This document shows, in pieces, positions 27,076 to 59,352 of a stretch of DNA of 64,000 nt. Numbering within the stretch: the stretch's first letter is position 1; every line of letters begins with the position of its first letter. Source of the stretch: Lactifluus volemus (taxonomy: Eukaryota; Basidiomycota; Agaricomycetes; Russulales; Russulaceae); assembly GCA_022376515.1 (NCBI GenBank), contig WTXI01000018.1:434001-498000 (forward strand), given 5' to 3'. The notes under the pieces are model-generated. The model had not been told where the DNA came from. It saw only the letters and a program-made list of their open reading frames with translations, and searched no databases. A program made the translations under genes and the position numbers.

Positions 27076-27269
27076 TCACAGATGCTCGTGGACGGCTAGG
27101 TCACCAACATCGACATCAACAGCTACAATAGGTCAGTCAATTTCATGCCAAGTGGACATGAGTCCTAGCGGAACGTACCAACAATTCCAACATATCCAGG
27201 CGATTCAAGAGGAGCAGCAAGAGTAAAGATGGCAAAAGAGAGGGCCAAGATGGTCTTGATAAACGTCAT
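27076..27269 (-). CDS. Small secreted peptide, hypervariable family member 1 (about 45 aa)
   Basis: Exon 1 (27269-27179) encodes a signal peptide MTFIKTILALSFAIFTLAA followed by a short variable segment (PLESPGYVGIV). A phase-1 intron with donor gtacgt and acceptor ttgtag leads to exon 2 (about 27123-27076), AVDVDVGDLAVHEHL, stop. Secretion by the classical pathway is expected; the mature peptide is short, acidic and Cys-free. A TATA box lies about 80 bp upstream (27349-27355). Function unknown. Six relatives occur at 39162, 43041, 45597, 48659, 52098 and 59256. Confidence 0.65.
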
Positions 27270-27348
27270 TGTGAAGTGAAAGTGATTGAGGATGATAGAA
27301 CGGTTTGAACGATGACGATGGTGGAGGAAAGGAGGGAAGGGGCCCAGC

Positions 27349-27355
27349 TTTTATA
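27349..27355 (-). promoter_or_regulatory. TATA box of secreted-peptide gene 1
   Basis: TATAAAA on the minus strand within the family-conserved context CTGTCTGGGGTATAAAAGC, about 80 bp upstream of the ATG at 27269. Confidence 0.7.
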
Positions 27356-27559
27356 CCCCAGACAGCTCTAGTCACTGTAGTGCATTGCTGCGTTTAGACA
27401 GGAGTTCTTACCATTAATGAGAAAGACTGCCATGTAGCGCCATCAGTCCTACTAGTAGATGCGCCACAGCCGAGACGGACTATGTCCCAACTCAGTTGTA
27501 GCCGCCGTAGTGGCGTCAACACTTACGCGTTGAACGCCGAACGTTGAACGTTGAAGCGC

Positions 27560-28127
27560 CGGCGCCCATGTCAACTGTGACAGGACGATTTTGGATTTTG
27601 ACATGAGGTGATTGGAAGTGAGACTCTGCGTTCACTTGGACAAATTACAATTTCAAACTGTGCATGGTACTACTACTACTCAGGCTAGTACGCCGCCTTT
27701 GGATGGGCTCGGTGTTTTTTTTCAACGCCCTCGGAAATTACCGTACACCAACTTTTGCTCTTAAAACCGAATACAATTCCCGAAATTGCTGTATGTCCTG
27801 CCTTCGCTGTCGTAAATCGACACTGAAACTAACATGACCGGTTTTATCACAAAGGGTAATTCAAACCTTTCTAATGCCGGTAGTAGCGCAACATGTACTG
27901 CGATCGCATGATTAATTAATTGTTTGACTTCTTTCGATTCGAGGGGTGACGAGAAGTTCAGAGGTGGTGCCGCCATCTACACCGCTTTGATTCACCCTAC
28001 TACCCAAGCGGTCGAAACGTTTGTGCGGAGTGATCAGAAAGGGCTGTAAGAATACTAGTAATCAAAGCGAAATTGTAAAAACGAGAAATTTAAATTATGA
28101 AAGTGGAAGTAATACTAGCTGAGCAGC
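27560..28127. other. Spacer DNA up to arm 2, no gene seen
   Basis: Contains a segment around 27980-28080 that recurs near 62640-62830 (ttcaccctactac followed by an ag-gatcagaaa motif), so it is dispersed repeat DNA. No coding signal. Confidence 0.35.
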
Positions 28128-28247
28128 ACTGTCTCTGGGTCATCAATACCCTCACCCTCACCCTCACCTTGCTACTGTTGCCCTCGCCATCGCCACTCCC
28201 GACACCGATCACAATCGGGTTTGGGTCTGCAACCGCGAATTGTGATG

Positions 28248-30541
28248 CCCAGTGAGAAGTGGAATGTAGTAACCCGAAGTAAACTGCAAAAAATTGAACC
28301 ATTCAATCTAATTCAAAAATCCGAACAATAGCCATTTTAATTCAATGGAAAATTGAAGGCATTATAATTATTCTGAATCGAATTGAATACCAGATCAGAT
28401 CGGACCGAATTCACTTGATCAGAATTGAATCAGGTATAATTGAATTAATCCCATTTATTTTCTATTTACGGTTACAGCTCTATTCAATTTTATTCTACCC
28501 TCGATGCTAATCACGTTGCCCCAGGTGGCCACGCGTCAAACAATCCAAGTCATCTTGGTGCTCACCGTGTCTGCAAAGCCGACTACTGCGGTCAATGATC
28601 CACCACCTCCACATCATCATCTTTGTCCCTGTCATCCGTTCTGGGCGTGGGCATGGGAGCTCCTCGGCCTCGAGCTCACGATGGCATGCGCTTGGATTGC
28701 TGAAGTGCAAGAGGGGGGTAGATGTAGGGCAGGGACATCGTGGGACTCTACAGGGCAGCGGTGGCGGCAGTAGCGATGGTGAGGTCAGGGTCATCATCGT
28801 CGTCATCGTTTGTGGGTTTGAGGGTTTGGTGATCTACCTGTATTGGAAGCTGTTAAATGCTCTCGAGTTCATAAAGGGTAGGGCGAGAAAAACAATAGGA
28901 AAAGACTGAACGCACAGGCATCACCCCAGTGGACAAAATCAGCCTCGGAAACATGGCTCTAATGATCAACAAAGACTCGGAGTGTAAGAAACATGTCAAC
29001 TATGGGATCCCTTGAAACAAAGGGCTGACCTTGCCAATGACAACGCGACCGCGGCGGTGTCCCAGACCACCACCACGTGGCCATTCCAGTTTGGCTACCC
29101 GATCTACTTTGTTCATGTGGATCGCACACCAAGCAGTGGTTGTGCTCTAGCCCTGCACATTGGTTTCTGTCTAGGAATGTCGAGTGAGGACCATCGGAGC
29201 TGTGTGATGCTGGTCATACGCACTGGGAATCGGTAGATGAGCTCAAGTGCTAAACATTAAACAAATGGCTATGATGGGGACCCTGCATTTCTGTGTAACC
29301 TACAAAATTCAAGTTCTCGCTGTATTAGGGTGCCCCGATATCAGTCGTAATGTCCTTGCGCAGACATTGATTCAGGACAACGACTTAGCTTCGAGCACAC
29401 TTTTTGTCAGGCCCTCTGCACCATCGCGCACTTCCTAGATCTTGGCAATGTCGACCTAAAACCGGATCAGTGAGTGCAGTCACGATTGGTCAAACGATGA
29501 AGCTTGGTGTAGTACCATGCTCTGAAAGTCAGTAAAGCACTTGCATGTAGAGTGAGGAGGCTAGTCTCACAAGCTGGAGCCCAGTTGATAAGGGCAAGGG
29601 GTGATTAGGTTCTCCCATCGGTGTGTACGAGGTTATACGAAAATACGACGGCCTCTGGGAGCTCTGCACCAAAAAGACACAAGAAAACGTCTCGACTTGC
29701 TCCATGATCAATTTCTGTTTGTTGATCTTGACCACAAGCGCAGCAGTGTTTTGGCGTTGGGTGAACCTGAGACATCCAGGGGAAGGGAGGGGAATGGAGA
29801 TGCCAAGGTCAAGAGGAGGTCGCTCGCTCTGGTGATCTCTTCGTGACGGCAGCAGCACGGGAGGGCCGGAAAGGAGGCAGGTGACAACGGTGGTGGCAGT
29901 GAGTGATGTTGTGGTGGCGGCGGTAAGTAGGAGAGGCACGCTGGCAGAGCAGGAGGGGAGAGGAAGCACGTTGGCCCGGGGATGCAACGGGAGAAAAGCA
30001 CGGCTATAAGCTCAATCGAAGATGCAACCCCCCCAAAAATATCCAAATGATGCTGGTCTGAGGAAGGTAGGAAGGGAGACACTCACGAAAACTTGTGGAG
30101 AGTATACAGGCCTCACGAGCAGCAGAGGAAAGAATAGGGGAACACATTGAGAAGGAGAGGAAGAGGGAAGAAATGTATGCGTCAGAATCAGCGCGCAACA
30201 CGAAGTCGATAGATGTAGCACGACAAACAACCACAAATAGGACAGTGCCTGGGTCAGTAAGTACTCGATGCAGGTTCAATGAACTGGATAAACAGTGCGC
30301 GATTCAGTTCATTCAATTCTAATCAGTTGCTTTCGATCGAGAAATAAATCTCGTGACTCAATCATTTGTATTCAATAAAATTCATAGAGAGATTGAATGT
30401 GATCGAGCGCTATTCAAATTTTATCAATGAAATCGAATTAATATTATTGTTATCATTTTATATCAATTCACATCAATCGTATTCATGTCATTCAATTTTA
30501 TTCGATCGGATCATATTTAATTCTATCCACTTCTCACTGGG
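28248..30541. mobile_element. 2.29 kb TIR element with 7-bp target duplication
   Basis: Ends are perfect 15-bp inverted repeats, CCCAGTGAGAAGTGG at the left and its complement at the right (30527-30541). Flanks are TGTGATG at 28241-28247 and again at 30542-30548. Arm 1 of the inverted duplication has the corresponding unoccupied site near 20460. The termini are AT-rich with ATTCAAT-type motifs; the middle is GC-richer. No transposase was recognised, so it is probably non-autonomous. TSD length resembles hAT-like elements (usually 8 bp), but class is not certain. Confidence 0.8.
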
Positions 30542-30647
30542 TGTGATGGGCGGGGAGGAGTGCCACAAAATCAACTGCCATTTCAGTGAATGAAGATTAC
30601 TGATATTCAGATTATGATGGGCATGTTTGACGATTTAAAACTTTGGT

Positions 30648-30815
30648 TCAAAGAAGTATTTCTCGTTCTCCCCTTAGCCTCATAGGGTGCTTCAAACCAT
30701 CTGTGCTTTGGACCCAGGTCGAGCTACCCTTGCTTCCCTTCCGAGTCATGGGGCGCTTGTCGGGTCTCCTCTTAATCGTGGAACGGAGATCGTAGCCATG
30801 CATGGACTTGGACAT
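30648..30815 (-). CDS. Small basic ORF, arm-2 copy (55 aa)
   Basis: MSKSMHGYDLRSTIKRRP start, as in arm 1, shortened by an in-frame 6-bp deletion in the GSGSKG region. Unknown function; retained frame is the only evidence. Confidence 0.3.
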   Translation of the reverse strand: MSKSMHGYDLRSTIKRRPDKRPMTRKGSKGSSTWVQSTDGLKHPMRLRGEREILL

Positions 30816-31839: not shown

Positions 31840-34800
31840 TTCCTGTATCTCAGTCCTCACAATACCGTTGTAGCTACCATCCCTCTCGCACAAGGACACA
31901 CCCAGATGATCCAGACTCGGAATACGTGAATCAAACTGTTCCCCCGCCCGATGTTGATGCTAACAATCACTACAGCACAAGTCCTCAAAACTCCGGAACA
32001 GGGTACATCACCTCCTTCAATTTCATTACAATATTTGCTCACATAACCGACTTTGAATAGCGCTCAGGTCAGCGAAACACAACAGGCCCTGCTCCAGTTC
32101 CATGTGACTGGTAGGTATCCTAGCGATACTGCTCTGATAAGTACTACATCTTTTTTTTTCCTGGCAGTCCTCAATGCACACAATGTTCCCCGCATCAAGA
32201 CCCCCTTGGGAGAAAAAGACAATTCTACGTTACTGTAGCCGACGGGCCGAGGACATGGCAAACACGATCTGTGCGGAACGTCGGACAACGTGTGGAATGG
32301 AATGAGAACATCGAAACCTTGTGGGAAATCTCGTATTTTCATTCGTACTTACAACTGAGTCTCCTGAAGCGCTGTACAACCACTCTCCGCCATTACAATA
32401 TCTCTTTTTGCGAAAAGCACGATGCATAAGGACACCCTTATTGGACGGAAGGATGTTGTCTGTGAACCCCAACATGGTTCGTCTTTTGCACATAATTCTT
32501 ATCCATCTCGCTGAGCATCCTATATGTAGAACTTAATATTGTTTTGAGCAGCACTGATGGTCCTCCAACTGAGCCAGCCACAGTCTTAACGATCACGATT
32601 GCCACAGTGCGACCAGACGCGGACAACCAGACGGAGTTGTCAGGTGATGCCCTCCGTAGCGCTGAGAGGGCTATCAAAACCATGGAAACATGGAGCAGTG
32701 CGGTTGGTGTTATCAAGCGGGTAATGGATACTGTCGGCCCAATCGCAGCAGTATGCTCAATATCATTCTACTCGTCCTTTGTTGAGCTAACTCGGGTTTC
32801 TCAGTTGCATCCCTATGCATCCCTAGCATGGAGTCTACTCTCAAAAGTTCCCGAGGTGCGTTACCTTGCACAGTGGGCGTATACGGAACATTCACACTGA
32901 TATCACCTCACTGCTAGACTTTCTTACAGCAAGTTGGGCGTGACGACAACATCCAGGCATTATTTGAAGCGATACGCGATGCATTTGAGTTTGCCAAAGA
33001 TGCCGATGCTTTGAGGAACATCAAGCCGGAGTCTAGACAAGCAAAAATCATACAGGAGATGCTACAGTGCGTCTCTGAAATTGGAAAATTCATCGAATTG
33101 TATGCGAAGCATGTACAAGTCGGTAAGTCCTGTCGATCTCTCGTTAGTGGTCACAAATATATGGGTTGCAGGGACGCGGACTTGGAAGAATATCTTCGGT
33201 CAAGTCGACGGAGAAATTGAACAGTATCGCACGACCCTCATCCGACTGCGAGATGATTTCCTCGCGCGTGCTGCTGTCACCACAGAGATTGCTGTGCTTG
33301 GAATACAGCTCGGTGTGAGTAACATGCAGGCCAATGTCAGTAATACTACTCCAACCAAGTAGGAGTTTCTCGACTCATTGGATTGAATTCACAGCTAGCA
33401 AACCAAGCATCAGAAGTTGGTGAGTGATTTTATTAATAAGTGACATAACGTCGTCGGTTCGTCGATCTGACAACGCTCTCACAGAATTCGGCGCAATAAT
33501 CAGAGAATTGCCTTACAAGGGAGGCTGGCGACACGGCAATACGAAACGCTGTCTTCTTGGCACACGCGTCGATTTCCTAGATTACATCATCAAGTGGGTC
33601 GAGAATCCAGAATCCGAACGTGGGCTCGTCCTCCTCGGCCAAGCAGGAACAGGGAAGTCATCGATTGCACACGAAGTCGCTCGCCGATTCGAGAACAAGG
33701 GTCTCGGCTCTTACTTCGCCTTCCTCCGAAAAGAACAGTCCAAAGACGAGGCTTACCAGCTCTTCACGACAATTGCCCGCGATCTCTCCGATCGCAATCC
33801 TGCTTTCAAACTAGCCCTCGGCAGAGTTGTGAAGGATAATTCGTCTCTTAGTGGTACCCGAGACTATCGTACACTCTTCGAATCCCTCCTCCTTGAACCG
33901 CTCAAGAGCCTGGAAGTTCGTGACCCAATTCTCATCGTTATTGATGCGTTGGATGAAAGTGGAGATGCATCTGGTAAAAATGGGCTACACGCATTTCTCT
34001 CTCAAAATCTGTTCGAGCTCCCGCAAAAATTTCGCATCCTGGTCACCTCAAGGCCGGAGGATAGTGTCGAAGCTGCATTTGCCAAAGCGTTATTTGTCGA
34101 TACCCTCTACATGGATGACGCGAAACTGGCTGCCAGGACGGAGCAAGACATTTGCGTGTATATTGAGAACGAGCTTCCTCCTGAAGTTTTCAAAGACCAC
34201 GGGATCAAACTAGCAAAAGCGGCAGAGGGCGTGTTTCAGTGGGCAGCTGTCGCATGCGGGTTCATAAATAGCCCTCCTGCTACGTTTGGGTTTAGCAAGA
34301 AAAAGTGCGTTCAGCGCCTATTGGGACACTCTCGGGATCTCAATAGACAAGATCCGTTGGACAAGTTATATGAAGAAGTTCTGGAAGGTTACTTCAAACC
34401 TTATGAAGCACAAGTCCTATTTCGGTCGGTGATGGGACAGCTTTTTGCTGCGCTCAAACCTCTCTCCCTTCGATCCTTGGTAGCTCTGAGACGGTATGCT
34501 CCCATCGATGACCCGGAGGATTCTGAACCCGTTATCGAAATGCTTCGTCACCTTGGCTCGCTTCTGAGTAACGTGACTCCAGCCAATGACACGCGTCCAA
34601 TCGTTCCTCTCCATACCTCATTCCGCGACTTTCTCACGAATAAGAAGAGCGACGTGTTTTATGTCGACCTTGGGGAAGCCCACCATCAGTTGGCACATTC
34701 CTGTCTTGGATTAATGCTGGATCATCTCAAGTTCAACATCTGTGAGCTCGAGTCGTCGTATATCGCCAACGGTGACGTCCCCGACTTGGAATCTCGAATC

Positions 34801-37417
34801 ACAAAACATATCCCACCAGCTCTATCATATGCCTGCCTTTTCTGGGGCGACCATTTAAAACACGTTGCTTTGGAACACGACCTCTTCATGAAGCTTCGAT
34901 CCCTGTTCGAGAGAAAGTTCCTATTCTGGCTGGAGGTGCTCAGCATCAAGAGCAGTGTGGGCTTTGCTTCGCGAGCATTGTCATCTCTGAAGATATGGTT
35001 GCGGTCTGACCAGTGGAAGGTACGTACACCCTATAGTTGAATATTGCATGTAGTGACTATTGGGTCAGCCTTCTGAAGCGGAGGCGGAGACGTTTTTCGG
35101 ATTGGTGAATGATGGATCGGCGTTTGTGGGATATTTTGGGATGGCGATAGCAAGAAGTGCTCCGCATATCTATATCTCCGCATTGCCCTTCACACCACCC
35201 TCTTCTCATATTTCTAAGCACTACATTCACCTATTCCCTCAAATATTGTCTCTGGAACGCGGGCAGTTGTCTCATTGGCCGGCGTTGGAAATGGTGATCC
35301 GGGCACATCACGAACAAGTCGGCTGCGTTGCGCTCTCTCCAGACGGGCAGCGGATCGCCTCTGCCTCAGAAGACAGTACGATTCGCGTGTGGGATGCCAT
35401 ATCGGGGGAACTCGTAGTGGGCTCATTCATCGGACATACTGGTGGGATTGTCGATGTTGCATTCTCGCCAAGCGGGCGACGCATCGCCTCGGCCTCACGT
35501 GACTGCACGATTCGCGTGTGGGATGCCACAAGCGGAGAGCTTGTACTAGACCCGTTTATTGGACACACCGATGCAGTCTATTCTGTTGCATTCTCACCAG
35601 ATAGTCAGCGCATTGCCTCAGCTTCGGCAGATTGCACAATTCGCATGTGGGATGCTGCAACGGGAGAGGTTGTAGCGGGTCCGTTGACAGGACACACAGA
35701 TCAGATCGGTTCTGTTGTATTCTCGCCGGATGGCCAGCGAATTGCCTCGGCCTCAATGGACCGCACGATTCGCATGTGGGATGCCGCTACAGGAGAATGT
35801 GTAGCGAGTCCATATACAGGCCACACCGGCTGGGTCAGGTCGGTTGCATTCTCACCAAACGGGCAGCACATCGCCTCGGCCTCAGATGACTGCACGATTC
35901 GCGTGTGGGATGCCACAACGGGACGACTTGTGGCAGGCCCATTCACTGGCCACACCGAAGCTGTGTTCTCTGTTGCATACTCGCCAGACGGCCAATGCAT
36001 CGCATCAACCTCGGAAGATCTCACAGTTTGTGTATGGGATGCCAAAACAGGAGATGTCGTAGCGGGCCCGTTTACTGAAAATATCGATTGCATTTTTTCT
36101 GTTGCGTTCTCTCCGGATGGGCAGCGAGTCGTCTCAGCCTCGGGAGATTCTATGATTCGCATCTGGAATGCCGCAGCAGGACAGGTCGTGGCTGGTCCGT
36201 TCACTGGCCACACCAATTCGGTTTTTTCTGTTGCATTCTCTCCGGACGGACAGCGCATCGCGTCGGCCTCTGCAGATTGCAAGATTATTCTGTGGGATGC
36301 CGCAACAGGAGATATCGCAGCGGGTCCGTTCACTGGACACACCAGATCGGTCGTTGCTATTGCATTTTCACAGGATGGGCAGGTCATTGCATCGGCCTCT
36401 GGGGATCACACGATTCGCATCTGGAATGCCACAACAGGAGAGGTTGCAGCGGGCCCGTTTGGCCACTCCCATGAGGTCAACTGTGTTGCGTTCTCGCCGG
36501 ATGGACAACACATCGCCTCGGCCCCATGCGATTGCACGGTTCGTGTGTGGGATGTCACAACAGGAGAGGTCGTAGCGGGTCCATTCACTGGACATACCGA
36601 AGCTGTCATATCTGTTGCGTTTTCACCGGATGGGCAACGCATCGCATCGGCTTCAGCCGATTTCACGATTCGCGTATGGAACGCCACAACAGGAGACGTC
36701 GTAGTCGGCCCGATTACCGGACACACCAGTCGTGTCTACTCTGTTGCATTCTCGCCAGACGGGCAATGCATCGCCTCAGCCTCGCAAGATTGCACGATTC
36801 GCATGTGGGATAGTAAAACAGGAGCGGCCGTAGCAGGTCCGTTTACTGGACACACCGCTTCTGTTGCTTCTGTTGCATTCTCACCTGATGGGCAATGCAT
36901 CGCCTCAGCCTCTTTCGATACCACAATTCGCGTGTGGGATGCCGCAACGGGAGAAGTCATAGCAGGCCCGTTCACTGGACATGCCAATTTTGTTAACTGT
37001 GTTGCATTCTCCCCAGATGGGCAGCACGTGATCTCAGCCTCAGGAGATCACACGATTCGCATGTGGGATGTTGCAACTGGAGAGTGCGTAGCAGGTTCAT
37101 CTAATGGATCTACAGAATCACCCCTTACTGTTACTGACAGGCAGCCCATTTCCTCGGCCCCACGAGACCACCCAATTCGCGTTAAGGGCAGCACAGGAGA
37201 TATTGAGAAGATCTATTTTACCGACGAGCTTTCCATCGATCGTGATGGTTGGATGTGTGGGGATGAGGGGCAACTTTTTTTATGGATTCCACAGATTCAT
37301 CGACCGTATCTTCAGAGATCTAACACTGTTTGGATTGCGGGCAGACATTATACCCAGTTAGATCTGTCAAACTTTGTGCATGGTTTGGATTGGACTACAG
37401 TATATGGTCACAGTTAA
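31840..37417 (+). CDS. NLR2: C2-like + NACHT + 14xWD40 STAND protein, paralogue of NLR1 with a lesion in the C2 region
   Basis: Same exon layout as NLR1. The NACHT exon (33424-35040) differs from NLR1 at about 16 of 538 residues; P-loop GQAGTGKSSIA and Walker B LIVIDALDESG are intact. The WD40 exon (35060-37417) has the same 14 repeats in the same order but differs at roughly 105 of about 600 residues, and ends with the same tail. In the C2 region one C is missing near 32205 relative to NLR1 (acccccttgg versus acccgccttgg), which shifts frame to an early stop, and a putative splice acceptor near 32420 reads AA instead of AG. Either may be a sequence error; if real, NLR2 lacks a functional N-terminal domain. 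Start unresolved. Confidence 0.8.
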
Positions 37418-38350: not shown

Positions 38351-39161
38351 AACGTCACGTCAATATCAGTGTTGATTCAGGTCCTGACAGCGAAGGGCTG
38401 AAGGCAGAGCAAATAAAAACACCGAGTCCATCCAAAGGCCGCGGCGGCGTACAAGCCTGACTCGGAGTCTCAGACAGTGGCAAGTTGGTCACATGCACTG
38501 TTTGAAATTGCAATTTGCCCAAGGGTCTTCCAATCATCCCATTGACATAGCGGTGGCGTCGCTTCAACCGTTTCAGTGTGTAAATGTTGACGCCACTGTT
38601 ACACCTGACTTGGGAGATAGTCTGTCTCGGAATATCTACTAGGACTGATGGCGCTAGATGGCTGAGTCTTGCTCAATAATGGTAAGAAATCCTGTCCAAA
38701 GGCAGGCATTACAGTGAACTGCTCTGTGGATCGTCAGGAAATCGCGAAGTGACTAGCGATGGTGTCATTATGACCCTGATCGAGTCTATATTCCGATATG
38801 GCTAGACCAGTTAACAAGCTTGCAACCCTTGGATGGACTAGCATGTCTAAGGGTCACTAGCAGTTTGAACAGAAAAAGCTAGTCACAGTGATTCTCCGCA
38901 TTGGGCCGATCTAACGGACCTGAATATCCATTCAAAGAACACATCCGCTGAACTAAATTACAACGTGGAGCCTCACTGGCAGCTGCATTGTGTGTGCCCG
39001 GTGCTTCCCGGTCGGTACTTCACAGATTTGTCACGATTCTTCTCTGGCTGTCAGACTCGAGCTGTCTGGGGTATAAAAGCTAAGTCCTTCGCTCCCACTT
39101 TCTTTCAGTAACGTCGTCATCTTCAAACTGTTCTATCATTCTCTATCACTTTCACTCCACA
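38350..39161 (+). promoter_or_regulatory. Conserved upstream region of secreted-peptide gene 2, with TATA box at 39073-39079
   Basis: About 600-700 bp upstream of the peptide gene are shared with the other family members (for example ctactaggactgatggcgct near 38638, 45358 and 51651, and reverse-complemented near 27450 and 59860). The core promoter GGGGTATAAAAGC lies 83-89 bp before the ATG. Confidence 0.6.
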
Positions 39162-39364
39162 ATGGTGTTTATCAAGACCATCTTGGCCCTCTCTCTTGCC
39201 ATCTTTACTCTCGCTGCTCCTCAGCCTCAGGGTCCGTTGCGTACGTTTTGCTAAAACTCATGTCCACTTGGAATGAACTTGACGGACCTACACTAGCGGG
39301 TCCTCCCTTCCCGGGCAGCGCTGACATCGTCATCAGCCTCGAAGCCGACATCGACGCTAAGTGA
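39162..39364 (+). CDS. Small secreted peptide, family member 2 (48 aa)
   Basis: Exon 1 (39162-39240): signal peptide MVFIKTILALSLAIFTLAA then PQPQGPL. Intron 39241-39296 (gtacgt...actag), phase 1. Exon 2 (39297-39364): PGPPFPGSADIVISLEADID, then AK and stop. The mature region is Pro-rich then acidic, without Cys, and shares little with its relatives beyond the DI/DV-D pattern. Confidence 0.7.
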
Positions 39365-39980: not shown

Positions 39981-39989
39981 TATTATTAC

Positions 39990-40740: not shown

Positions 40741-40746
40741 GCGCTT

Positions 40747-41647
40747 TCAGCCCTCGGAAGGAGATGAATACAGGCAACATAAAGAAAATGCATCAATACA
40801 AATCCACCGCGCCTTGGGCGACCAACGCAAAATTCAACGCGGCGCTGCCGACAGAGCGTAGCGAGTGCGCCATGACTCCGTCAGGCGGAGTGCCGGCGAG
40901 ACACGCAAAGCTATTCGCCTTTCGACGTATTGCATCTGGTCCGCGATCGGAGCCCCACTCTACTGCGATAAGCGCGCCTACCAGACCGGGTAGTGGACGC
41001 ACTTCTACGGGGGCGAGCGGGAGGCGCTGGGGTTCCGGGTGCAGACGCGTGTGCATGTAAGAGCCGCCACCTCGCACGCCGGTGAATAGGTGGTCTAGGA
41101 AGGGGTTGTACATCACGCCTAGGACTGGGACGCGTTGGTTGGGAAAGCCGTGAACAAAGTTGGTCGTCCCGTCTTATTATTGTTTTGTTAATAGATTTGT
41201 TGATGAAATGTAAGAATATTCGTGGAAACTCCCAAACTACTGTACTGGGCTTTTACGTACCTATTGGATCGACGCAGAACGTCGGCACATCCGTGAGTGG
41301 TGGATGAGTCCCGGACGAATACGACTCCTCGCCGATGCTGCAGAGAATATACAGTTACAAAAAATTAAAAACTCAGCTTTTGGGTTCCTCGAGAGAAGAG
41401 AACACGTTACAGTTGAAAGTACGGATATGCGCGCGCAATCTCTCCACACGGACCAGATCTTCGAGACCTTGACGTCGTACTCGGTCACAAGGTCTACCGC
41501 GTTCTTTTTCTCGCCGACGCCACCTGCGCCTGCGCGTTGGATCGCGTGCGATCCTTCGAGCAGGAGGGCGCCAGCTTTGCGTGCGAGCTCGATCGTGAAC
41601 TCGAGAATCTCTTGGAATTCTGCAGGGTTGAGCGGGTTATTAGCCAT
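40747..41647 (-). pseudogene. Inositol monophosphatase-like gene, copy B (truncated)
   Basis: N-terminus at 41647 (MANNPLNPAEFQEILEFTIE, KNAVDLVTEYDVKV) followed by a scrambled segment near 41455 that shifts frame. DGTTNFVHGFP is present, but the following ACISLGLIDK block is missing near 41120 compared with copy C. The middle GGGSYMHTRLHPEPQRLPLA and ALIAVEWGSDRGP are present; everything C-terminal of the first intron after GAVDLY, including the WPWD metal site and the C-terminal domain, is replaced by unrelated DNA left of 40745. Confidence 0.7.
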
Positions 41648-42851
41648 ATAAATGGATTGCCAGTGGGATGAACAAATTGTAAGTGGCAAGGATCAGCTGA
41701 TCGCAAGCGCTCAGCGTTTCCCACAACTCACTCACGGTCATGATCATACAGTCACGGTGTGAATTAATTCAGTTATCCCAGTTCGAGCCGGGGTATAAAA
41801 GCTTTGCTCGATTCAGAGGCGAGCTTTGTGTTTTTTTTTTGATGTCCTGTCGTCCTCGTACTTCACGCCTACCGATTGACGCGATGACCTTGGTTCGTTC
41901 ATGCAGTTGCCAGCCTTGGGAGCGTGCTCACCTCTCAGTGACAACCTAGTTCTACCCACTCCCACTTTGCTTTCACGTAATCGCCGTACTTCGCAGCGTG
42001 CCCAAATAAGGCGATGTAACCACTCACTGCCAGTGGCCCGGGCAAGCCTGAGGTGGTGGAGTTGGGGGAGAGCGAGCTGCAAGTCGACGGGGGAGCACAA
42101 CCCAAGTCACTTTTCCATCTAAATCTACTGGCCGCACTGAATGGGTATCCGAGTCATGGCGACATCGCAGCCGGCGACGACAAGGGCAATCGATAATCAG
42201 CCGCTGGGAGCAAGCAATGATCGAGACACAGGTTGACTTATAGGGGAATGAAATTGGAATGCATATAGTTGCTGTCTAGAATACACAGTTAAACTTTGGT
42301 AGAGATTGAATACCAGTGAGTAGTTTTGAAAGTGACAAAGTAGTAGTGATGAAGACCTAGTATCAAATGTGAAGTAAAAAATCCCATGATCCGAGGTCGT
42401 GCAGTAAGTTGCAATGTAATTTACCGAGGTGACCTTAAGTAACGGGTACTTGAGGGCGATTGACCGAAATCGTTACATACATTTGCCTCAAGAAAGTATT
42501 CACATGTAGCTAGTACTAGTATTATTGTTCTTGTCATAGTATTTGCGATGTCGAAGAGTCTCTGGCTGGGTGGTTCTCGAAAGGTCAAACATTCAAAGTA
42601 ATTTCAATCTCATGGAACAGATATTGGATTCCTAAATAAACGTGATAAAGCCACGACTTAAATATCCAAAGTTAACAAAAGTCCGCCATGTGCCAAAATT
42701 ACGGCTGTACTACGTGCGCGTCAGGCCCCGGATGCGCGTACGTTGATACGTCCCAAGGGGCTAGCCGCAAGAGGTTAGTGTTGCATTAATCTCCGAGTAG
42801 AATAAAACCATACAAGAGAAAAATAAAACTTTCACAAATGCTCCTGGAGGC
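41648..42851 (-). repeat. Segmental duplication unit, copy 2 (non-coding part)
   Basis: Near-identical to 25887-27075. It includes the stretch with tctctggctgggtggt, found downstream of every peptide gene. No gene is seen within it. Confidence 0.7.
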
Positions 42852-43041
42852 TTACGCGTCACGCACATTTAAGCCACCACCTACCATAGGTCAGTCAATT
42901 TCATGCCAAGTGGCCAAGTAGACATGAGTCCTAGTGGAACGTACCATCAACTCCCTCATATATGGGTCTAGGCCGAAGCTCAGGAGCAGCAAGAGTAAAG
43001 ATGGCAAGAGAGAGGGCCAAGATGGCCTTGATAAGCGTCAT
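42852..43041 (-). CDS. Small secreted peptide, family member 3 (about 41 aa)
   Basis: Exon 1 starts at 43041: signal peptide MTLIKAILALSLAIFTLAA then PELRPRPIYEGVD. Phase-1 intron (gtacgttcc...atggtag, with a short internal duplication of cacttgg) to exon 2 GGGLNVRDA, stop at 42852. The shortest mature tail in the family. TATA box at 43130-43136. Confidence 0.65.
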
Positions 43042-43129
43042 TGTAAAGTGAAAGTGGTTGAGGATGATAGAATGGTTTGAAGGATGACGAGGATGGAGGA
43101 AAGAGCTTGAAGGAGGGAAGGGGCCCAGC

Positions 43130-43136
43130 TTTTATA
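43130..43136 (-). promoter_or_regulatory. TATA box of secreted-peptide gene 3
   Basis: TATAAAA on the minus strand in the context CTGTCTGGGGTATAAAAGC, about 90 bp upstream of the ATG. Confidence 0.7.
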
Positions 43137-43578
43137 CCCCAGACAGCTCACTCTGCCACAGCCGAGACGGACTATGTCCCAGCTCAGGTGTAGCCGCTGC
43201 AGTGGCGTCAACAGTTACGCGTTGAACGCTGAACGTTGAACGTCGGCGCCCATGTCAACCGTGAGTGATTAGATGTGAGATCTCACCGGTCACAACTCTG
43301 AGTGACAACCTCGCGTTCTACGCACTCCCACTTTGCTTCTTTCACTCAACCACCCTCCTTCCCAGCGTGCTCAAATAAGACGACATAACCACTCACTGCA
43401 AGCCTGAGGTGATGGTGTTGGGTGAGAGTCGGCCGCTGTGAGCGAGAAATGATCGAGACTCAAGGAGAGACGGGTCACGGGTGAATGATAGGTACAAGAG
43501 CTGATTTTAGCCGAGGAAAAATGGTAACGTAGGGGATACAGTAATTTGTCTAGCGAGCATGTGGCGCTGTATTGCGTA

Positions 43579-45596: not shown

Positions 45597-45845
45597 ATGA
45601 TGTTTATCAAGACCACGTTGGCCCTCTCTCTTGCCATCTTTACTCTAGCTGCTCCTCAGGCTCAGATTCTCGATTGTTCTCTTTGTACGTTCTGCTAGAA
45701 CTCTTACTTGGCATGAGCTTGATGAACCTATAGTAATGAAGCTCAATCTGGGCGCCGACGTGCTCCGGAGATGGTATAAATTTCTCTTTTATGATTCTAT
45801 CCTACACTCGTGGGTTAATGCAACATTACTGTCTCTTGCAGCTAG
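45597..45845 (+). CDS. Small secreted peptide, family member 4 (about 44 aa)
   Basis: Exon 1 (45597-45684): MMFIKTTLALSLAIFTLAA then PQAQILDCSL. Phase-1 intron gtacgt...ctatag; exon 2 from 45734 reads MKLNLGADVLRR. A second intron (gtataa...ttgcag) would bring a stop at once (RC, stop); without it the frame continues to about 45957 in a low-quality tail. The second intron corresponds to 3'-flank sequence in other members, so the ending is tentative. The only member with Cys in the variable part near the cleavage site. Confidence 0.55.
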
Positions 45846-46366
45846 CCCCATCTGCACAGACGTATCAACGTACGCGCTTCCAGGGCCTGCACGCGCCCGT
45901 GTTTGGGTTTGGGCTGGGTCGTGGTGGTGGGCGAGAGAAGGGCCGAGAGAAGGATAGGGATCATTTGGGGAAGAAAGAGATGGTGGAAGTAAGAAGGCAC
46001 TCAGGGTGCACCTTCCGAGCGCGTTTGGATCCGGCGGCACGGGCCCAGGTGCAAGCGCAGCAGTGGCTACTGCGACGCGATCCTCTTAAGGGTGTTTTTG
46101 TCTCCTTCCTCGATCTCTCTCCACTTTTGTTCGTTTTTAATTCTGTTAAAGCTCACTTTTTGTTTTTCGTATGCTAGCGCTGCATGTATAGATATACCAA
46201 CGGCCATTTAGAGCAGGAATCACTATATAGCATACCAGGTACTACTCCATCCATCCCATCCATCACTGGTTGGAAATAACGTGTATTCACAGGCCTGTAT
46301 GCGCTACCGCCCACCAGTCCTTTTTTTTTTGCTGCGAATGATATCTCTTCCCACCCACTCCGGTTC
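45846..46366. other. Intergenic, GC-rich then T-rich
   Basis: Includes a segment at 46050-46300 that repeats near 24260-24500 (tgcgacgcgatcctctta), i.e. the 3' flank shared by IMPase copies A and C. No gene. Confidence 0.4.
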
Positions 46367-47803
46367 CTATTCCCCGAGGGGGATATCCTCGACTGTATCG
46401 TAGAATTTGCGTGCGATGCGTTTCTGCACTTCGATGCTACTCTCCTCCTGGTTGGTTGGTTCACACAAGTTGTGTGCGTTAGCGGTGCGATCCAGTTTCA
46501 GTATCTTTGTACGTACCGGGGTCTCCGCTACGCCGCGGATGGCGAGGTAGCGTCGGCCAGTCAAGATCGCCTCTGTCACGATCCCGTCATGCGATACATC
46601 CTTAGAACCTGTGACGAACCCGCCAGCCTCTTGCACGATTACGATGCCCGCCTGACGACCCAAAGAGTCAGAACACTTGATGAAAGTGTGGTGGTTTTAG
46701 TACTACGCAACACAGACATCCCAAGGCCTTGGAGGGGGAGAGGAAAAAGAGAAGGCCGCACTCTTGCGTTAGCGACAGAACGTGCGGAAAACAAAACATT
46801 AATCGCTTACCAGCATCCAATCTCCCTATAAACAACGGCGCCATCAAACGAAAAATCTTCAGTCTCCCTCGGAAGGAGATGAGTACGAGCAACAAAAAAA
46901 ACGGACCAATATAAATCCACTGCGCCCTGCGCGACCAATGCAAGGTTCAACGCGGCGCTGCCGACTGAGCGCAGCGAGTGCGCCATGACGCCGTCAGGCG
47001 GAGCGCCGACGAGACGCGAAAAGCTATTCACCCTTCGACGAATCGCTTCTGGTCTGCGATCGGGGCCCCACTCTACCGCGATGAGCGCGCCTGCCAGACT
47101 CAGTAGTGGACGCGTTGATACAGGGGCGAGCGGGAGGCGCTGGGGTTCTGGGTGGAGACGCGTGTGTATATAAGAGCCGCCGCCTCGCACGCCGGTGTAT
47201 AGATGGTCTAGGAAGGGGTTGTAGATCACGCCTAGGACTGGGACGCGTTTGTCTATCAACCCTAAAGAGATGCACGCGTTGGGAAAGCCGTGAACAAAGT
47301 TGGTCGTCCCGTCTATATTATTATTATTATTATTATTATTTAAACCAATTTGTTGAACATATCCGGGGAAATCCCAAACTACTGTAACGGTTTTTTACGT
47401 ACCGATTGGATCGACGCAGTATGTCGGCACATCCGTGAGTGGTGGACGAGTCCCGGACGAATACGACTCCTCGCCGATGCTGCAAAGAATATACAGTTAC
47501 AAAAACATCAAAAAACTGAGCATTCTTGGGCATTTTGCGTCCTCGAGAGAAGAGAACACATTACAATTGAAAGTGCGGATATTCGCGCGCTATCTCTCCA
47601 CGGACGAGGTCCTCGACCTTGACGTCGTACTCGGTCACAAGGTCTACAGCATTAATTTTCTCACTGACGCCACCTGCGCCTGCGCTTTGGATTGCTTGCG
47701 ATCCTTCGAGCATGAGGGCGCCAGCTTTTCGTGCGAGCTCGATCGTGAACTCGAGGATCTCTTGGAGTTCTGCAGGGCTGAGCGGGTTCAAGTTATTAGC
47801 CAT
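46367..47803 (-). CDS. Inositol monophosphatase family protein, copy C (apparently intact)
   Basis: Mg-dependent phosphomonoesterase; substrate by family: inositol phosphates or related sugar phosphates. Start at 47803: MANNLNPLSPAELQEILEFT, KAGALMLEGSQAIQ, AVDLVTEYDVKVEDLVRGEI, YPHFQ/FIGEES (metal ligand Glu), CVDPI/DGTTNFVHGFP (metal motif restored across an intron containing an ATT microsatellite), ISLGLIDKRVPVLGVIYNPF, GGGSYIHTRLHPEPQRL, ALIAVEWGPDRRPEA, GAVDLYW/EIGCW/PWDVC (second metal motif WPWD), AGIVIVQEAGGFVTGSKD, TEAILTGRRYLAIRG and a C-terminal helix ending VEDIPLGE. About seven exons; one intron near 46710 may use a GC donor. All catalytic motifs are visible, unlike copies A, B and D. 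Confidence 0.75.
47312..47340. repeat. ATT trinucleotide microsatellite
   Basis: About nine ATT units inside the intron that splits the DPIDGTTNF motif of IMPase copy C. Confidence 0.8.
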
Positions 47804-48658
47804 ATGTATGGATTGCCACTGGCAGTGGGGGGAACAGATAGTAAGTCGTAGGCAAGGACGTTAAAGCTGAGGGCGGTTCAGCGGGTGAAGGAACAGGCGT
47901 CCAGGTAGAAACGTAGTAGGGTATATATTAATATATACATGCGCATAGCGCGAGGCTGGCCTTTGTATGTAATTGTGGTCATCTACATGTTCCGAAGCTT
48001 CTACTACCTAATTAGGATGTTGGCAAATTCAGACGTGCATCTTCGATATGTAAATCCCAGAATGTACTATCTCTGAGATGGTAAGCTTGACGATCTCCAA
48101 CAAAGGCTTATGGTCGTGGTCATCATGACATCGGTTGGTGCCAATGAGAATTAATTCAGTTATCCCAGTTCGAGTCATAACTCTCAGTGACAACCTCACG
48201 TTCTACGCACTCGCACTTTGCTTCGTTCACGCAATCGCCGTCCTTCGCGGCGTGCTCAAACAAGATGCATACAGTGCAAGACTTAGAGTGGTGTCGGGCC
48301 GAACGCCATGTCATTTTCAGCTTGATTTTCAGTGTTGATTTGGGACCTGACAGCGGCGACTCGGAACTCGAAGAGACAGTGATTCCCATTTCCCACATTG
48401 GGCCGATATACCGGACCCGAATATCCATCCAAAGAGAACATGCACTGAATTAGATTACATTGTAGATTGCCTCAGCTCCGGTGTGTGGGCCCGCCGCCCG
48501 GTGCTTCCCGGTTAGCGTCACGATTATTCTCTAGAGGCTTCGGCTGTCGGACTCGAGCTGTCTGGGGAATAAAAGCTGGGCACCTTTGCTCCCTCTTCCC
48601 TTCACCAACGTCGTCACCCTACAGACCGTTCTCTCGTCTTCAATCACTTTCACTCACA
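47804..48658 (+). promoter_or_regulatory. Intergenic, upstream region of secreted-peptide gene 5 (TATA-like AATAAAA at 48568-48574)
   Basis: 47870-48170 is unique and AT-rich; 48170-48658 is family upstream DNA, with GAGCTGTCTGGGGAATAAAAG as core promoter. Confidence 0.5.
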
Positions 48659-48894
48659 ATGTTGTTTATCAAGACCACCTTGGCGCTCTCTCTTGCCATC
48701 TTTACTCTCGCTGCTCCTCCGAGTCAGCCTCAGACTCGGGGTATTAGTACGTTCTGCTAGAACTCCGAGTCATGTTCACTTGGCATGAACTTGACAGACC
48801 TATAGTAGATGCTGATTCCTACCCTGTAGTCGACTTGGACCTGTGTCTTGGTATTATAAACTCACCGGAATCATGCGAAAGGTCAGAAACCTGA
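48659..48894 (+). CDS. Small secreted peptide, family member 5 (about 58 aa)
   Basis: Exon 1 from 48659: MLFIKTTLALSLAIFTLAA then PPSQPQTRGI. Phase-1 intron gtacgt...tagtag. Exon 2: NADSYPVVDLDLCLGIINSP then ESCERSET and stop at 48894. The longest mature tail, with two Cys. Confidence 0.65.
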
Positions 48895-52097: not shown

Positions 52098-52285
52098 ATG
52101 GTGTTTATCAAGACCATCATGGCCCTCTCTTTTGCCATCTTTACTCTCGCTGCTCCTCCGCCTCAGCTTCGTAATTTACTTGGTCATGGTACGTTCCGCT
52201 ATCACTCATGCAGTGTCCACTTCTTGATGGACCTATAGCACACGCTGGTGTCCACAACGATCTCGACTCGGAGGTGTCCCTGTGA
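52098..52285 (+). CDS. Small secreted peptide, family member 6 (about 45 aa)
   Basis: Exon 1 from 52098: MVFIKTIMALSFAIFTLAA then PPPQLRNLLGH. Phase-1 intron gtacgt...ctatag. Exon 2: AHAGVHNDLDSEVSL, stop at 52285. His-rich and acidic mature part. Confidence 0.65.
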
Positions 52286-54147: not shown

Positions 54148-54839
54148 TTAAAACGCGACCCAAGCGCCGATTAACACGCCACCAGCTGTTGTCGCGAGGG
54201 CTGCGAATAAAGGTGAGGAGATCTGTAGGGACAGAACGTTCGCCCCGGCTTCGTTTCTGAAAAACAAACGTAAATTTTTTGAACTTTTGCCCAAGTTGAT
54301 CAGGGTGGTTGTATGCGTACTTTGTTCCGGTCGCTGCACTGGCTGCAGCCGCAGTTGCGACAGTGTAGACGGAGCCAGCGAAAGTAGTGACAACGCCTGC
54401 ACCACTTTCCGCGAGGGTGATAACCGCACCACCAGCCTCGGTGACTTCGGTAAAAGCCTTGCCGCCGATCGCTACGACATTATTCAACGACGGACTCGCG
54501 CCCGGACGACGCAAAGAGGACGTACACGTGACTACGGTACCAACTTGACCAGCGAGGGAAGTCGCTTCCGTGAAAATAGATCCCGCTGTCAAGCTAGAGA
54601 TCAGGGATGCGCGACAGGCGTTTCAAAAAGCCAGTATGACATACCTGCAGAGGTAACATCGCCCGCAAACGAAGTGACATCCCCAACAACTGCGTAAAAT
54701 CAACCAAGCTTGTACCTAATGGATGGATGCCAAAACTAAGGCCACACACACCTTGACGCTTCTCTTCGGGTATCGCTTCTGGCGCTCCGAGGACGAGCGC
54801 AGCAAGAGAAAGAGCCGAGAGAATGTGCATGTACTTCAT
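54148..54839 (-). CDS. Secreted, probably GPI-anchored cell-surface protein
   Basis: Start at 54839 with signal peptide MKYMHILSALSLAALVLGAP and a propeptide-like EAIPEEKRQ with a dibasic KR (Kex2-type site). Exon 2 VVGDVTSFAGDVTSA; exon 3 LTAGSIFTEATSLAGQVGTV, one CTSS, then Ala/Gly/Thr/Val-rich GGAVITLAESGAGVVTTFAG and SAATGTK; the last exon reads NEAGANVLSLQISSPLFAAL and ends in a hydrophobic tail (GGVLIGAWVAF) typical of GPI attachment signals. Four exons with gtgtgt, gtatgt and gtacgc donors, frame continuous. About 150 aa. Family not recognised. Confidence 0.65.
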
Positions 54840-57045: not shown

Positions 57046-58370
57046 GTTCTGGGTTTTTCATGCAGGCTCTTCCCTGTGCTACCACGTCATCCCCATCTTG
57101 TCATATAAATCACTCTCTCAGTACCTTCTCCGTACCTTCTCCGTTTTCTCTCTCTTGAGTGCGCGAGGAAACCCATAAGAACTTATGCGCGCGTTGAAGG
57201 TTTACGAGTGCCCTGTGCGGATCGAGCGCTGATCGTTTCAAACCCTGGCTGTTCCAATCCTGTAGTCTTGCAAACAAGCCTACTCCAATTTCTCGTCTCG
57301 TGAGAATCCCGCTCGGCTGTTTCCGCTGCCCATAAACATTGTGTTGGACATGTTCGCCCCAGGCTCTGTTCGAATGTGAGTGCAAACCAATATAAGAGGA
57401 GGAGCCAGCATCTCGCCCCATACTATTGACATGATCAACGGCACCGACGGCGTATCGCGCCGATCACAGTACTTGTACTTCCTAGAACGTATTCAAAGAA
57501 TCGTAGTGCGTCCAACTAGAAGCATACCTTTCTTCTCATCTTGTGGCAACAAGACGTCAGCGCGTCATCTTCTGTCCACCATTCGGGTAAATGGCGAAAA
57601 CTTCTCCGTTGTTGACGTCATTGTAATCCATTGGGTACTGTACTGTATGTGTACTCTGTCGTGGCAGTCTCTTATTAGGATATGATGAAGAGATGTACTG
57701 GGGTCCGCGCGTTCGGTGTCACTTCGCCGCTTGCTCACGTGTCCGGTTGGGGCTAACCGGCACCCGCTCCGCTCCGCACCGAAGGCGTCATGCGCGTCAT
57801 GGCGCGGAGATTCTCTGGTTCTACAGTAGAGCCCCGCACAGAAGGCGTCATACGCGTCACGGCGCGGAGATCCTCTGGCTCTACGTAGTCATGGTACTGT
57901 GTCATGCCTCTAAAGAAGACGGATGTCGGTAAATGCGTTGGCACGAATACTAAGACGCTTAAAACCAAAACTTTGTTCAAGTTCACCAGAAATGAGAGAA
58001 GAGTGCTGGACCGGATGTCGCGGTGCAGGCAACCCATAGGCCAGAACGCCGCATAAAGAACCGCATACATGGAATCGTTTTAGCAGTTGTAATTCCCGAA
58101 AGAGCAGGTACTAGTAGTACTTCTTCGATCGCCGTGAGAAGACAAATCTAGATTTCAACAAGAAAGGATCCCCGGTTGCGCTGCCATTCTGACTGAGATA
58201 ACCCATGGACTCGGAGGCTTCGCAAGCGACATAAAGCCCACCAGAGAGCATCGGGAGTTGGGAAACAGAGACACACTAGAGGCGTCGTTCAACGTTCAAC
58301 GTGCAGCTGATGTTTGGTTCAGTCTAGGAAAGAACGGGAAAAAAGACCGTCTGTCTAAGGACTGGTTGTT
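57046..58370. other. Intergenic, no gene seen
   Basis: Holds a two-copy tandem repeat at about 57778-57890 and otherwise nothing recognisable. Confidence 0.35.
57778..57890. repeat. Two-copy tandem repeat, about 57 bp unit
   Basis: Units share gaaggcgtcat-cgcgtca-ggcgcggaga and ctctgg-tctac; they differ at a few bases. Confidence 0.7.
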
Positions 58371-58378
58371 CAAGTTGT

Positions 58379-58450
58379 CGGGATGGCGGCAACGGCCAGC
58401 ATAACAAGAGAAAGAGTAGCGATGGCAAGTACAGTAAACTTATGACGAGG
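58379..58450 (-). pseudogene. Relic of another signal-peptide exon
   Basis: Minus strand reads KFTVLAIATLSLVMLAVAA then IPTT and stop. The expected ATGAAG start reads ATAAG, one base short. Unlike the seven-member family in sequence. It could be a real gene with an indel or chance. Confidence 0.3.
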
Positions 58451-59068
58451 TTAAGGAACGGGGAATTGAATAGACAGGTGCCATGATTGCTGTGACACTC
58501 ACGATATATCCCTCCTCCGTCTGCGCTACTGTGGGATCCGGTTTGTTTCCTAATGGGCGGTTAGCCAAGAGGTAACGAGTACTGATACTCCATCGAAACG
58601 TCAATATAGAACTTCTATGTGCAGGAAGTGAGTCACCGCCTTGCAGAAAACGGTAACCACACGTCTAGCCCTGCAGCCTGATGACCTGGCGAGTCTGGCG
58701 GCTGTAGGTTGTCAGCTCTGCTGTTTCTCTTCCGAAGTCGGGCTGACACATTGCTTCGTTGTTCTGGTGACAGTATCTGCGATGTCTAAGAGGAGCCTCT
58801 GGCTGGGCGGTCCTCCAAAGGTCAAACATTCAAAGTAATTTCAATCTCATGCAACAGATAATGGATTCCCACATAATCCCACGACTAACATATCCGAAGT
58901 AAAGAAGAAGTCCTCCACGTGCCAAAATTACGGCTGCACTACGTGGGCGTGAGGCCCTGGAAGCACGTTAGTTGATACGTCTCTGCCAATGGGGCTAGCT
59001 GCATGAGACATTAGTGTTCCAATAACCCCCGAGTGAGGAATAGAATCATACAAGAGAAAATAATGCCA

Positions 59069-59256
59069 TCACAGGACGACGTTGACGGGAGCGAGGTCAA
59101 CAACATCGACTATGGGTCCGTCAAGTCCATGCCAAGTGGACGTGAGTTCTAGCAGAACTTACTAAGAAGTCCATCGTCATCATGACCCTGAGGCTGAGGA
59201 GTAGCGAGAGTAAAGATGGCAAGAGAGAGGGCCAAGATGGTCTTGATAAACACCAT
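59069..59256 (-). CDS. Small secreted peptide, family member 7 (about 44 aa)
   Basis: Exon 1 from 59256: MVFIKTILALSLAIFTLAT then PQPQGHDDDGLL. Phase-1 intron gtaagt...ccatag. Exon 2: IDVVDLAPVNVVL, stop at 59069. Exon 1 is closest to member 2, exon 2 to member 1. TATA box at 59346-59352. Confidence 0.65.
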
Positions 59257-59345
59257 TGTGAAGTGAAAGTGATAGAGGATGATAGAACGGTTGAAGGGTG
59301 ACGACGTTCAGTTGGTGAAGGAAAGAGGGAGCGAAGGGGCCCAGC

Positions 59346-59352
59346 TTTTATA
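59346..59352 (-). promoter_or_regulatory. TATA box of secreted-peptide gene 7
   Basis: TATAAAA on the minus strand in the context CTGTCTGGGGTATAAAAGC, 90 bp upstream of the ATG. Confidence 0.7.

Follow-up and report, generated by a model that had tools for sequence, protein, structure and literature searches.

A 64,000-nucleotide stretch of Lactifluus volemus DNA, called the window here and lying on a contig labelled C90, contains seven very small genes that share a signal-like start and differ in most of what follows. What kind of genes are these, and what could join so constant a beginning to so changeable a product?

Gene models and family size

The original prediction described seven genes for tiny secreted peptides. 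The seven ATGs lie exactly where it placed them and open into the signal-like stretch that the genes share; the phase-1 donor is present in all seven with introns of 49-64 nt. The features of these genes are:

27076..27269, minus strand: peptide gene g1 (exon 1 27269-27179, intron 27178-27123, exon 2 27122-27076)
27347..27365, minus strand: TATA motif CTGTCTGGGGTATAAAAGC of g1
39162..39364, plus strand: peptide gene g2 (exon 1 39162-39240, intron 39241-39296, exon 2 39297-39364)
39062..39080, plus strand: TATA motif of g2
42852..43041, minus strand: peptide gene g3 (exon 1 43041-42945, intron 42944-42881, exon 2 42880-42852)
43128..43146, minus strand: TATA motif of g3
45597..45957, plus strand: peptide gene g4 (exon 1 45597-45684, intron 45685-45733 or to 45741, exon 2 to 45957 or 45779)
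48659..48894, plus strand: peptide gene g5 (exon 1 48659-48746, intron 48747-48805 or to 48808, exon 2 to 48894)
52098..52285, plus strand: peptide gene g6 (exon 1 52098-52188, intron 52189-52238, exon 2 52239-52285)
59069..59256, minus strand: peptide gene g7 (exon 1 59256-59163, intron 59162-59110, exon 2 59109-59069)
59344..59362, minus strand: TATA motif of g7

Two predicted details hold in part. An exact TATAAA, expected upstream of every gene, starts 81-96 bp upstream in five of the seven and is absent from those at 45597 (g4) and 48659 (g5), which have TATTAAA and AATAAAA in its place. Counting from the residue that follows the position-20 Pro, the mature parts of g1 to g7 are 25, 28, 21, 83, 38, 25 and 24 aa long, so that the predicted range of 20-38 residues covers all genes except g4. 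The g4 model is ambiguous, as a 57-nt intron instead of the 49-nt one gives a much shorter product; in g4 and its allele the usual stop is lost and the frame continues into the 3' region. A second intron in the 3' region (TG/GTA...GCAG) was considered and dropped: g1 and g3 have GCGG at the acceptor site, and the donor is absent from other copies.

The family is far larger than the seven members first proposed. The union of genome searches gives about 77 loci, two of them based on weak matches alone, in the window's own 62.4 Mb genome, an assembly that appears to contain two haplotypes. One of the 77 lies just beyond the window end, at C90:500024. Genes of such small size easily escape annotation. 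Fifty-eight of the 77 loci were looked at, 52 of which were taken into modelling and six inspected only; the other 19, including one known just from its start, are outside the counts given here. Models were obtained for 50 of the 52, the exceptions being C54_22k, which shows no intron donor, and C33_63k, where an insertion exceeds the scan. Among the six inspected loci, two have a readable exon 1, three are frame-shifted and one carries an insertion. In total, 5 of the 58 loci are broken or have no recognisable intron.

The gene structure recurs across this set more often than chance allows. Because the scan itself demanded phase 1, the informative figure is the number of loci yielding an in-frame phase-1 donor at all, which is 50 of 52, over 15 different mature exon-1 lengths. 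The introns measure 45 to 64 nt, in 13 different lengths that show no preference for multiples of three. The stop context T(G/A)ATGG occurs in 31 of the 50 models, in frame in 24 of them at 10 distinct distances and out of frame in seven. All 50 modelled members begin with a hydrophobic signal-like stretch which, read by eye, has a positive N-terminus, a hydrophobic core and small residues at its end.

Conserved chassis and variable cargo

The core comparison uses 16 copies, namely eight loci on both haplotypes, giving 120 pairs. Identity is 0.93 in the signal-peptide DNA, 0.77 in the upstream and promoter region and 0.79 in the intron. The mature-coding pieces lie near their shuffled baselines, at 0.51 against 0.43 on the exon-1 side of the intron (M1) and 0.42 against 0.37 on the exon-2 side (M2). 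Between core and other members, intron identity is 0.66 (shuffled 0.48), so conservation of the intron extends across subfamilies, and both M1 and M2 are at 0.42 (shuffled 0.40), close to baseline. The conserved intron thus sits between two variable mature-coding pieces. One subfamily, on C423, C134, C175, C33:20k and C90:366k, has a nearly uniform mature part.

The mature peptides have a median length of 28 aa, mostly 21-40 residues, and are acidic, with a mean net charge of -3.9 versus +2.0 in shuffles. The acidic tendency noted at the outset is borne out by a negative charge in 46 of 48 distinct peptides, and the reported scarcity of Cys by its complete absence from 32 of the 48; no peptide has more than four. 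The peptides do not fit two known classes. Repeat proteins processed by KEX2 would have repeats split by dibasic sites; here a KR or RR pair is found in one mature part among the 50 models. Hydrophobins need eight Cys, and Pfam gives no hydrophobin match over 27 members. The sole Pfam match among those 27 is one member at E 0.087, and the family profile matched no chain in the PDB; neither search gives any sign that the genes are decayed fragments of a larger known gene.

A fixed signal with a variable cargo has known parallels. In conotoxin superfamilies, as described in one source, the introns are conserved and the mature exon has many more point mutations as well as three-base indels (PMC3862624). 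The present genes likewise conserve signal and intron around a hypervariable mature part, though not at every locus; they differ in that the fungal peptides are acidic, have no Cys framework and have their own mature part split by the intron. The MSDIN precursors, which likewise form a mushroom gene family and join a hypervariable core to a conserved leader, have a leader that is not a signal peptide and a core that is excised by prolyl oligopeptidase. Here the leader is hydrophobic and signal-like and precedes a longer variable part, after which no conserved follower is seen. The acidic, Cys-poor fungal family itself appears undescribed: open-licence PMC literature, judged from titles and abstract starts, yielded no description of it, and no match to the signal-peptide strings.

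Basidiomycete lipopeptide mating pheromones come from clusters of very short, variable precursors that diverge between haplotypes and accompany STE3 receptors. The peptide genes resemble them in clustering, size, variability and haplotype divergence, and differ in having no CaaX end, as Cys is never fourth from the end in the 48 peptides read by eye. A genome STE3 search placed none of its 82 matches on C90, C25 or C33; receptors lie on C607, C77, C596 and C626 and small matches on C385 and C112. Three family loci on C607 are more than 100 kb away from the STE3 matches of that contig. With no STE3 at the peptide cluster, a mating-type pheromone system was rejected.

Divergence between alleles and the NLR neighbours

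The contrast of fixed signal and changing cargo holds up and in part exceeds what was claimed, since it is visible between alleles at several loci while the intron is conserved. In allele pairs with alignable flanks, flanks differ by 1-9% and mature pieces by 0-56%, with a strong excess in some pairs and none in others. The mature part differs several-fold more than nearby non-coding DNA at g7 (flanks 0.028/0.015, mature 0.56/0.40), 340k/C33_68k (0.040/0.025 and 0.35/0.31), C37/247k (0.044/0.011 and 0.13/0.11), g1 (0.045 in the 200 bases on either side, mature 0.355/0.298) and C44/C377. No clear excess is seen at g3, g4, C134_8k/C90_363k, 325k/C33_92k and 326k/C33_90k, the last of which differs most in the signal peptide; at g2 the excess is confined to exon 2 and is hardly above its 3' side. 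Allelism is assumed for C44/C377, C134_8k/C90_363k and C37/C90_247k.

Rates were calculated over 13 pairs, two of which (C90_g6/C25_g5 and C90_340k/C33_65k) are paralog-like. The ratio of mature pN to intron p is 4.4 (bootstrap 3.3-6.0). The dN/dS is 1.23 (0.71-1.99) in the mature part, not significantly above 1, and 0.62 (0.24-1.39) in the signal peptide, not significantly below 1. Synonymous sites in the mature part are raised as well. With a mature interval of 0.7-2.0, positive selection is therefore not proven. The 13 pairs do not include g4, whose exon 2 is frame-shifted, g7 and 340k/C33_68k, which cannot be aligned, the positional g5 and g6 pairs, which are not best partners, or the 345k pairs; their omission lowers the measured mature divergence.

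The g7 allele on C25 is a mosaic, in which ectopic gene conversion from another gene of the cluster seems to have replaced about 260 bp around the mature part. A 65-base whole-genome search with its mature exon-1 piece found nothing but itself, and hence no donor.

The window also contains two NLR genes, 94% identical over 6.3 kb:

13324..17314, minus strand: NLR gene of the peptide-linked clade (NACHT/NPHP3_N ORF 15701-17314, WD40 ORF 13324-15648)
33424..37414, plus strand: inverted second NLR copy (ORFs 33424-35037 and 35060-37414)

Clustering near NLR genes had been proposed in general terms. As a general effect it is weak and was rejected, because such NLRs abound (1154 first-look candidates genome-wide) and few adjoin peptide genes: 5 of 150 scored NPHP3_N matches lie within 15 kb of one, all five in the group with at least 95% identity. 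The association was kept for the window's own clade. Among the best 80 matches, all nine copies with at least 86% identity, a line set after the list was inspected, have a peptide gene no more than 15 kb away, versus 1 of 71 others; the nine include the query, its twin and several alleles or recent duplicates. NLR copies 95-97% alike adjoin core genes in the window, the C90:345k gene, and genes of the uniform type on C134, C175 and C266. Since these peptide genes differ in subfamily, one co-duplicated unit fails to explain the link, and local spread along the chromosome could be its source.

Fungal NLRs are known in pairs with linked partner genes, such as plp-1/sec-9 in Neurospora, whose known partners are cytosolic. 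The likeness here is that one particular NLR clade has members of a variable family of small genes no more than 15 kb away; the differences are that the peptide has a signal-like start and that the link to the NLR is one of gene position.

Explanations and meaning

The reading we favour, at a probability of roughly 55%, is a genuine, large family of short peptides, predicted to be secreted, that diversify in a role in recognition or antagonism. The TATA promoter, signal peptide and short conserved intron would form a chassis delivering a cargo that is free to change in sequence yet kept in frame, short and acidic. Substitutions and indels of three bases, both falling in the two mature-coding pieces, may generate the cargo diversity, and ectopic gene conversion, with the conserved pieces as possible homology arms, may swap cargo between loci. 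AP-xP trimming would leave an N-terminal Gln. Once expressed and secreted, the peptides would most likely have extracellular partners, themselves variable, to which they bind. Candidate roles are telling kin from non-kin or acting against competitors, with being different as the presumed selected trait; the effector, defence or self-signal functions first proposed are likewise putative.

A possible if doubtful alternative is that these are effectors or toxins in an arms race with a host plant, prey, bacteria or competing fungi, diversifying to escape countermeasures. Such a role would suit a family that is large, clustered and quick to change, whose members have a signal-like start and which includes broken copies and a recent local expansion. 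Many toxins are Cys-rich or cationic. The mostly Cys-free, acidic peptides are unlike these, and the eight loci keep the same order and orientation on both haplotypes, with no presence/absence differences, although the pairing of g5 and g6 is mixed. That the promoter, signal peptide and intron alone matter, for example through an RNA or a regulatory intron, and that the mature part simply drifts, is unlikely. It accords with a mature dN/dS compatible with 1 and with an intron conserved even between subfamilies, but free drift is insufficient at the five pairs in which the mature part differs several-fold more than nearby non-coding DNA, and frame, short length and acidity are all retained.

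Very little weight falls on the idea that the family arose as a by-product when segments were repeatedly duplicated, or that a mobile element carries the peptide gene. Within the window there are duplicated blocks that contain IMPase-like fragments and NLRs, and the uniform subfamily is scattered across small contigs. Against this, Pfam found no transposon domain in 16 window ORFs or ORF pieces, a scan short of a full TE search; alignments between window paralogs span a few hundred bases around the gene, except for 2.4 kb common to g1 and g3; and divergence sits in the cargo rather than at the edges. Equally improbable are repellent-like or amyloid-like hyphal coat peptides whose sequence is free as long as polar and hydrophobic residues alternate. 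Alternating D/N/E and V/I/L/F/A runs of at least four residues occur in 22 of 48 peptides, a count for which the random expectation was not computed, and are absent from 26; a coat role would also leave the above-flank divergence between alleles unexplained.

A more specific and rather improbable reading has the family serve as identity peptides in a dikaryotic mushroom. Either nucleus would carry an array of secreted acidic peptides, with modules reshuffled by ectopic conversion and kept divergent between partner nuclei, to be read directly or indirectly by the linked NACHT-WD40 NLR clade. The second NLR copy of the window (33424..37414) has no match on C25, and so no close counterpart on the other haplotype, among the 80 best matches.

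The family is a clean example of a delivery chassis that stays fixed while its cargo is free, with a conserved intron set between the variable stretches, and its cargo diversification, through substitutions and what appears to be module swapping by conversion, can be seen between the two haplotypes of one individual. The mechanisms of nonself recognition in basidiomycetes are called completely unknown in a passage of one source (PMC8229728). If the peptides are recognition signals, they would be testable candidates for its molecular basis, and if the identity-peptide reading is true, these would be candidate genes for basidiomycete nonself recognition.

Gene structure, family size and haplotypes

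The seven peptide genes of the window lie where the original prediction placed them, and the shared putative signal peptide and single phase-1 intron it described are present in each:

27269(-), g1
39162(+), g2
43041(-), g3
45597(+), g4
48659(+), g5
52098(+), g6
59256(-), g7

The first 19-20 residues of all seven are signal-like, and a single phase-1 intron divides the short mature part into an exon-1 and an exon-2 piece, the second exon being short. The genome, 62.4 Mb in 628 contigs, holds at least 77 family loci according to the union of a promoter/exon-1 DNA search, a signal-peptide search and searches with two other members. Of these 77, 58 were inspected and 52 of the inspected loci were modelled. 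An open two-exon reading is found in 50 of the 52, and five of the 58 are broken or lack a recognisable intron. Upstream sequence of 130 bases or more is available for 48 loci of the modelled set, and 43 of these have an exact TATAAA there. The loci are grouped as follows, C90 being the contig that carries the window, which occupies C90:434001-498000.

Groups of family loci
Core cluster: inside the window and just beyond
Second set: C90:174-366k, plus C33, C37, C57, C78, C144 and others
Nearly uniform type (part of the second set): C423, C134, C175, C266, C33:20k, C90:366k
Divergent set: C596, C150, C505, C334:1245k

In the uniform subfamily, the signal peptide is frame-shifted in three of the loci L004, L037, L077 and L062, and the fourth has an exon-1 insertion.

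A dikaryotic basidiomycete with both haplotypes in the assembly is indicated by many matches to STE3 mating pheromone receptors on C607 and C77 and by duplicate contigs that are colinear. The STE3 matches form large arrays (C607 131-159k, 384-423k and 706-721k; C77 64-75k), and the C77 array resembles the other haplotype's version of C607:706-721k. On contig C25 there are eight family genes that follow the order and orientation of g1-g7 plus g8, the next C90 gene (-,+,-,+,+,+,-,-). The best partner is the positional partner for six of the eight (g1, g2, g3, g4, g7 and g8); C25_g5 is closest to C90_g6, and the middle of the cluster has therefore been rearranged or converted. Contig C33, when reversed, is broadly colinear in gene order with C90:325-345k, and two of its genes (83156 and 84666) have no listed C90 counterpart.

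Divergence among paralogs and between alleles

Among 120 pairs of 16 core copies (eight loci in both haplotypes), signal DNA has a mean identity of 0.93, the intron 0.79, the upstream 100 bases 0.77 and the downstream 100 bases 0.59; the mean is 0.51 for mature exon 1 against 0.43 when shuffled, and 0.42 for exon 2 against 0.37. When core copies are compared with the 34 remaining members, identity is 0.66 in the intron (shuffled 0.48) and 0.56 in the 100 bases upstream (shuffled 0.46), with both mature pieces and the 100 bases downstream near the shuffled baseline. Alignment of the family introns (45-64 nt) shows conservation extending far past the splice signals, also across subfamilies; intron retention, if it occurred, would give many precursors a TFC-stop or similar Cys end.

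Flanks align well in only part of the allele pairs. The pairs below are named by gene or by contig and kb, C90 being meant where no contig is given.

Differences between alleles
g7: flanks 2.8% and 1.5%, mature pieces 56% and 40%
340k/C33_68k: flanks 4.0% and 2.5%, mature pieces 35% and 31%
C37/247k: flanks 4.4% and 1.1%, mature pieces 13% and 11%, intron identical
g8: flanks 2.9% and 8.9%, mature pieces 10.8% and 2.3%
C44/C377: upstream 1.9%, mature pieces 10.9% and 6.8%, downstream not homologous
g1: 200 bases each side 4.5%, mature pieces 35% and 30%, far-upstream alignment poor

In other pairs, the mature excess over the flanks is confined to exon 2 in g2, not clear in 325k/C33_92k, and absent in g3, g4 and C134_8k/C90_363k; in 326k/C33_90k the signal peptide is the most divergent part.

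Origin of the differences

Drift alone does not fit the loci with a mature excess, because under free drift the divergence of the mature part would follow that of its flanks. Across 13 close pairs, the mature part has a pN of 0.134 and a pS of 0.111, compared with an intron divergence of 0.030 and an upstream divergence of 0.044, and the ratio of mature pN to intron divergence is 4.4 (3.3-6.0). Mature dN/dS is 1.23 with a bootstrap interval of 0.71-1.99, and that of the signal peptide is 0.62 (0.24-1.39). Since mature synonymous sites are raised too, point mutation with selection at the protein level is insufficient as a full account. Window scans bring out one further process. As far as the signal-peptide start, C25_g7 is closest to its own allele. 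The intron of C25_g7 and the region at about 200-320 are closest to C90_g1, most windows matching at 37-40 of 40 bases, and past about 320 the gene is again mostly closest to its own allele. Such a trace would be expected from an ectopic gene conversion tract about 260 bases long. Within this tract, window scans found no good match of the mature pieces to another core gene, and a genome-wide search found no match elsewhere for the mature exon-1 piece. In six further genes scanned, promoter, signal and intron windows are mostly near-perfect against several paralogs, and the paralog matches fall in both mature pieces.

Genomic neighbourhood and mature peptides

The window also contains the following features:

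13324-17314(-) and 33424-37414(+), inverted NACHT-WD40 NLR copies, 94% identical across 6.3 kb
24263-26111, 40745-42180, 46052-47846 and 61850-62550, inositol monophosphatase-like gene fragments duplicated beside peptide genes
54594-54839(-), a separate short ORF (MKYMHILSALSLAALVLGAPEAIPEEKR...) that has a KR site and a start resembling a signal peptide, without a Pfam match
57774-57888, a 60-base tandem repeat of about two copies
23097-23134 and 23371-23421, 17-base C-rich or G-rich repeats

PF00459 matches three of five scanned inositol monophosphatase-like pieces, one of them under the curated cut-off. NLRs of the window type are very common in the genome (1154 candidates, 150 of them scored). 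Among the best 80 of 1189 candidates compared with the window NLR, all nine matches of at least 86% identity, a line set after inspection of the list, have a peptide gene within 15 kb, as against one of the 71 below it; no more than 1.7% of the genome is this near to a peptide gene. The query and its twin are among the nine, several of which are alleles or recent duplicates. This linkage would follow either from the local spread of an NLR within one chromosome or from a functional pair. Probably only one haplotype has the copy at 33424-37414, because the same best 80 include no C25 match and the g1-g2 spacing is 4.2 kb on C25 compared with 12 kb on C90.

Median length among the 48 distinct mature peptides is 28 residues (range 21-89, the long ones having lost the usual stop), and 32 of the 48 contain no Cys. 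Net charge is negative in 46 of the 48, with a mean of -3.9 against baselines of +2.0 from shuffled bases and +3.4 from the two other frames. The signal end carries (A/S/T)P-x-PQ in 37 of 50 precursors. Other secreted precursors are trimmed stepwise by dipeptidyl cleavage, and by analogy such trimming could leave an N-terminal Gln on the mature peptide. The family is real, a fixed chassis with exchangeable acidic cargo, and the best-supported putative function is extracellular recognition or antagonism that favours difference, with either self or other organisms as the partner.
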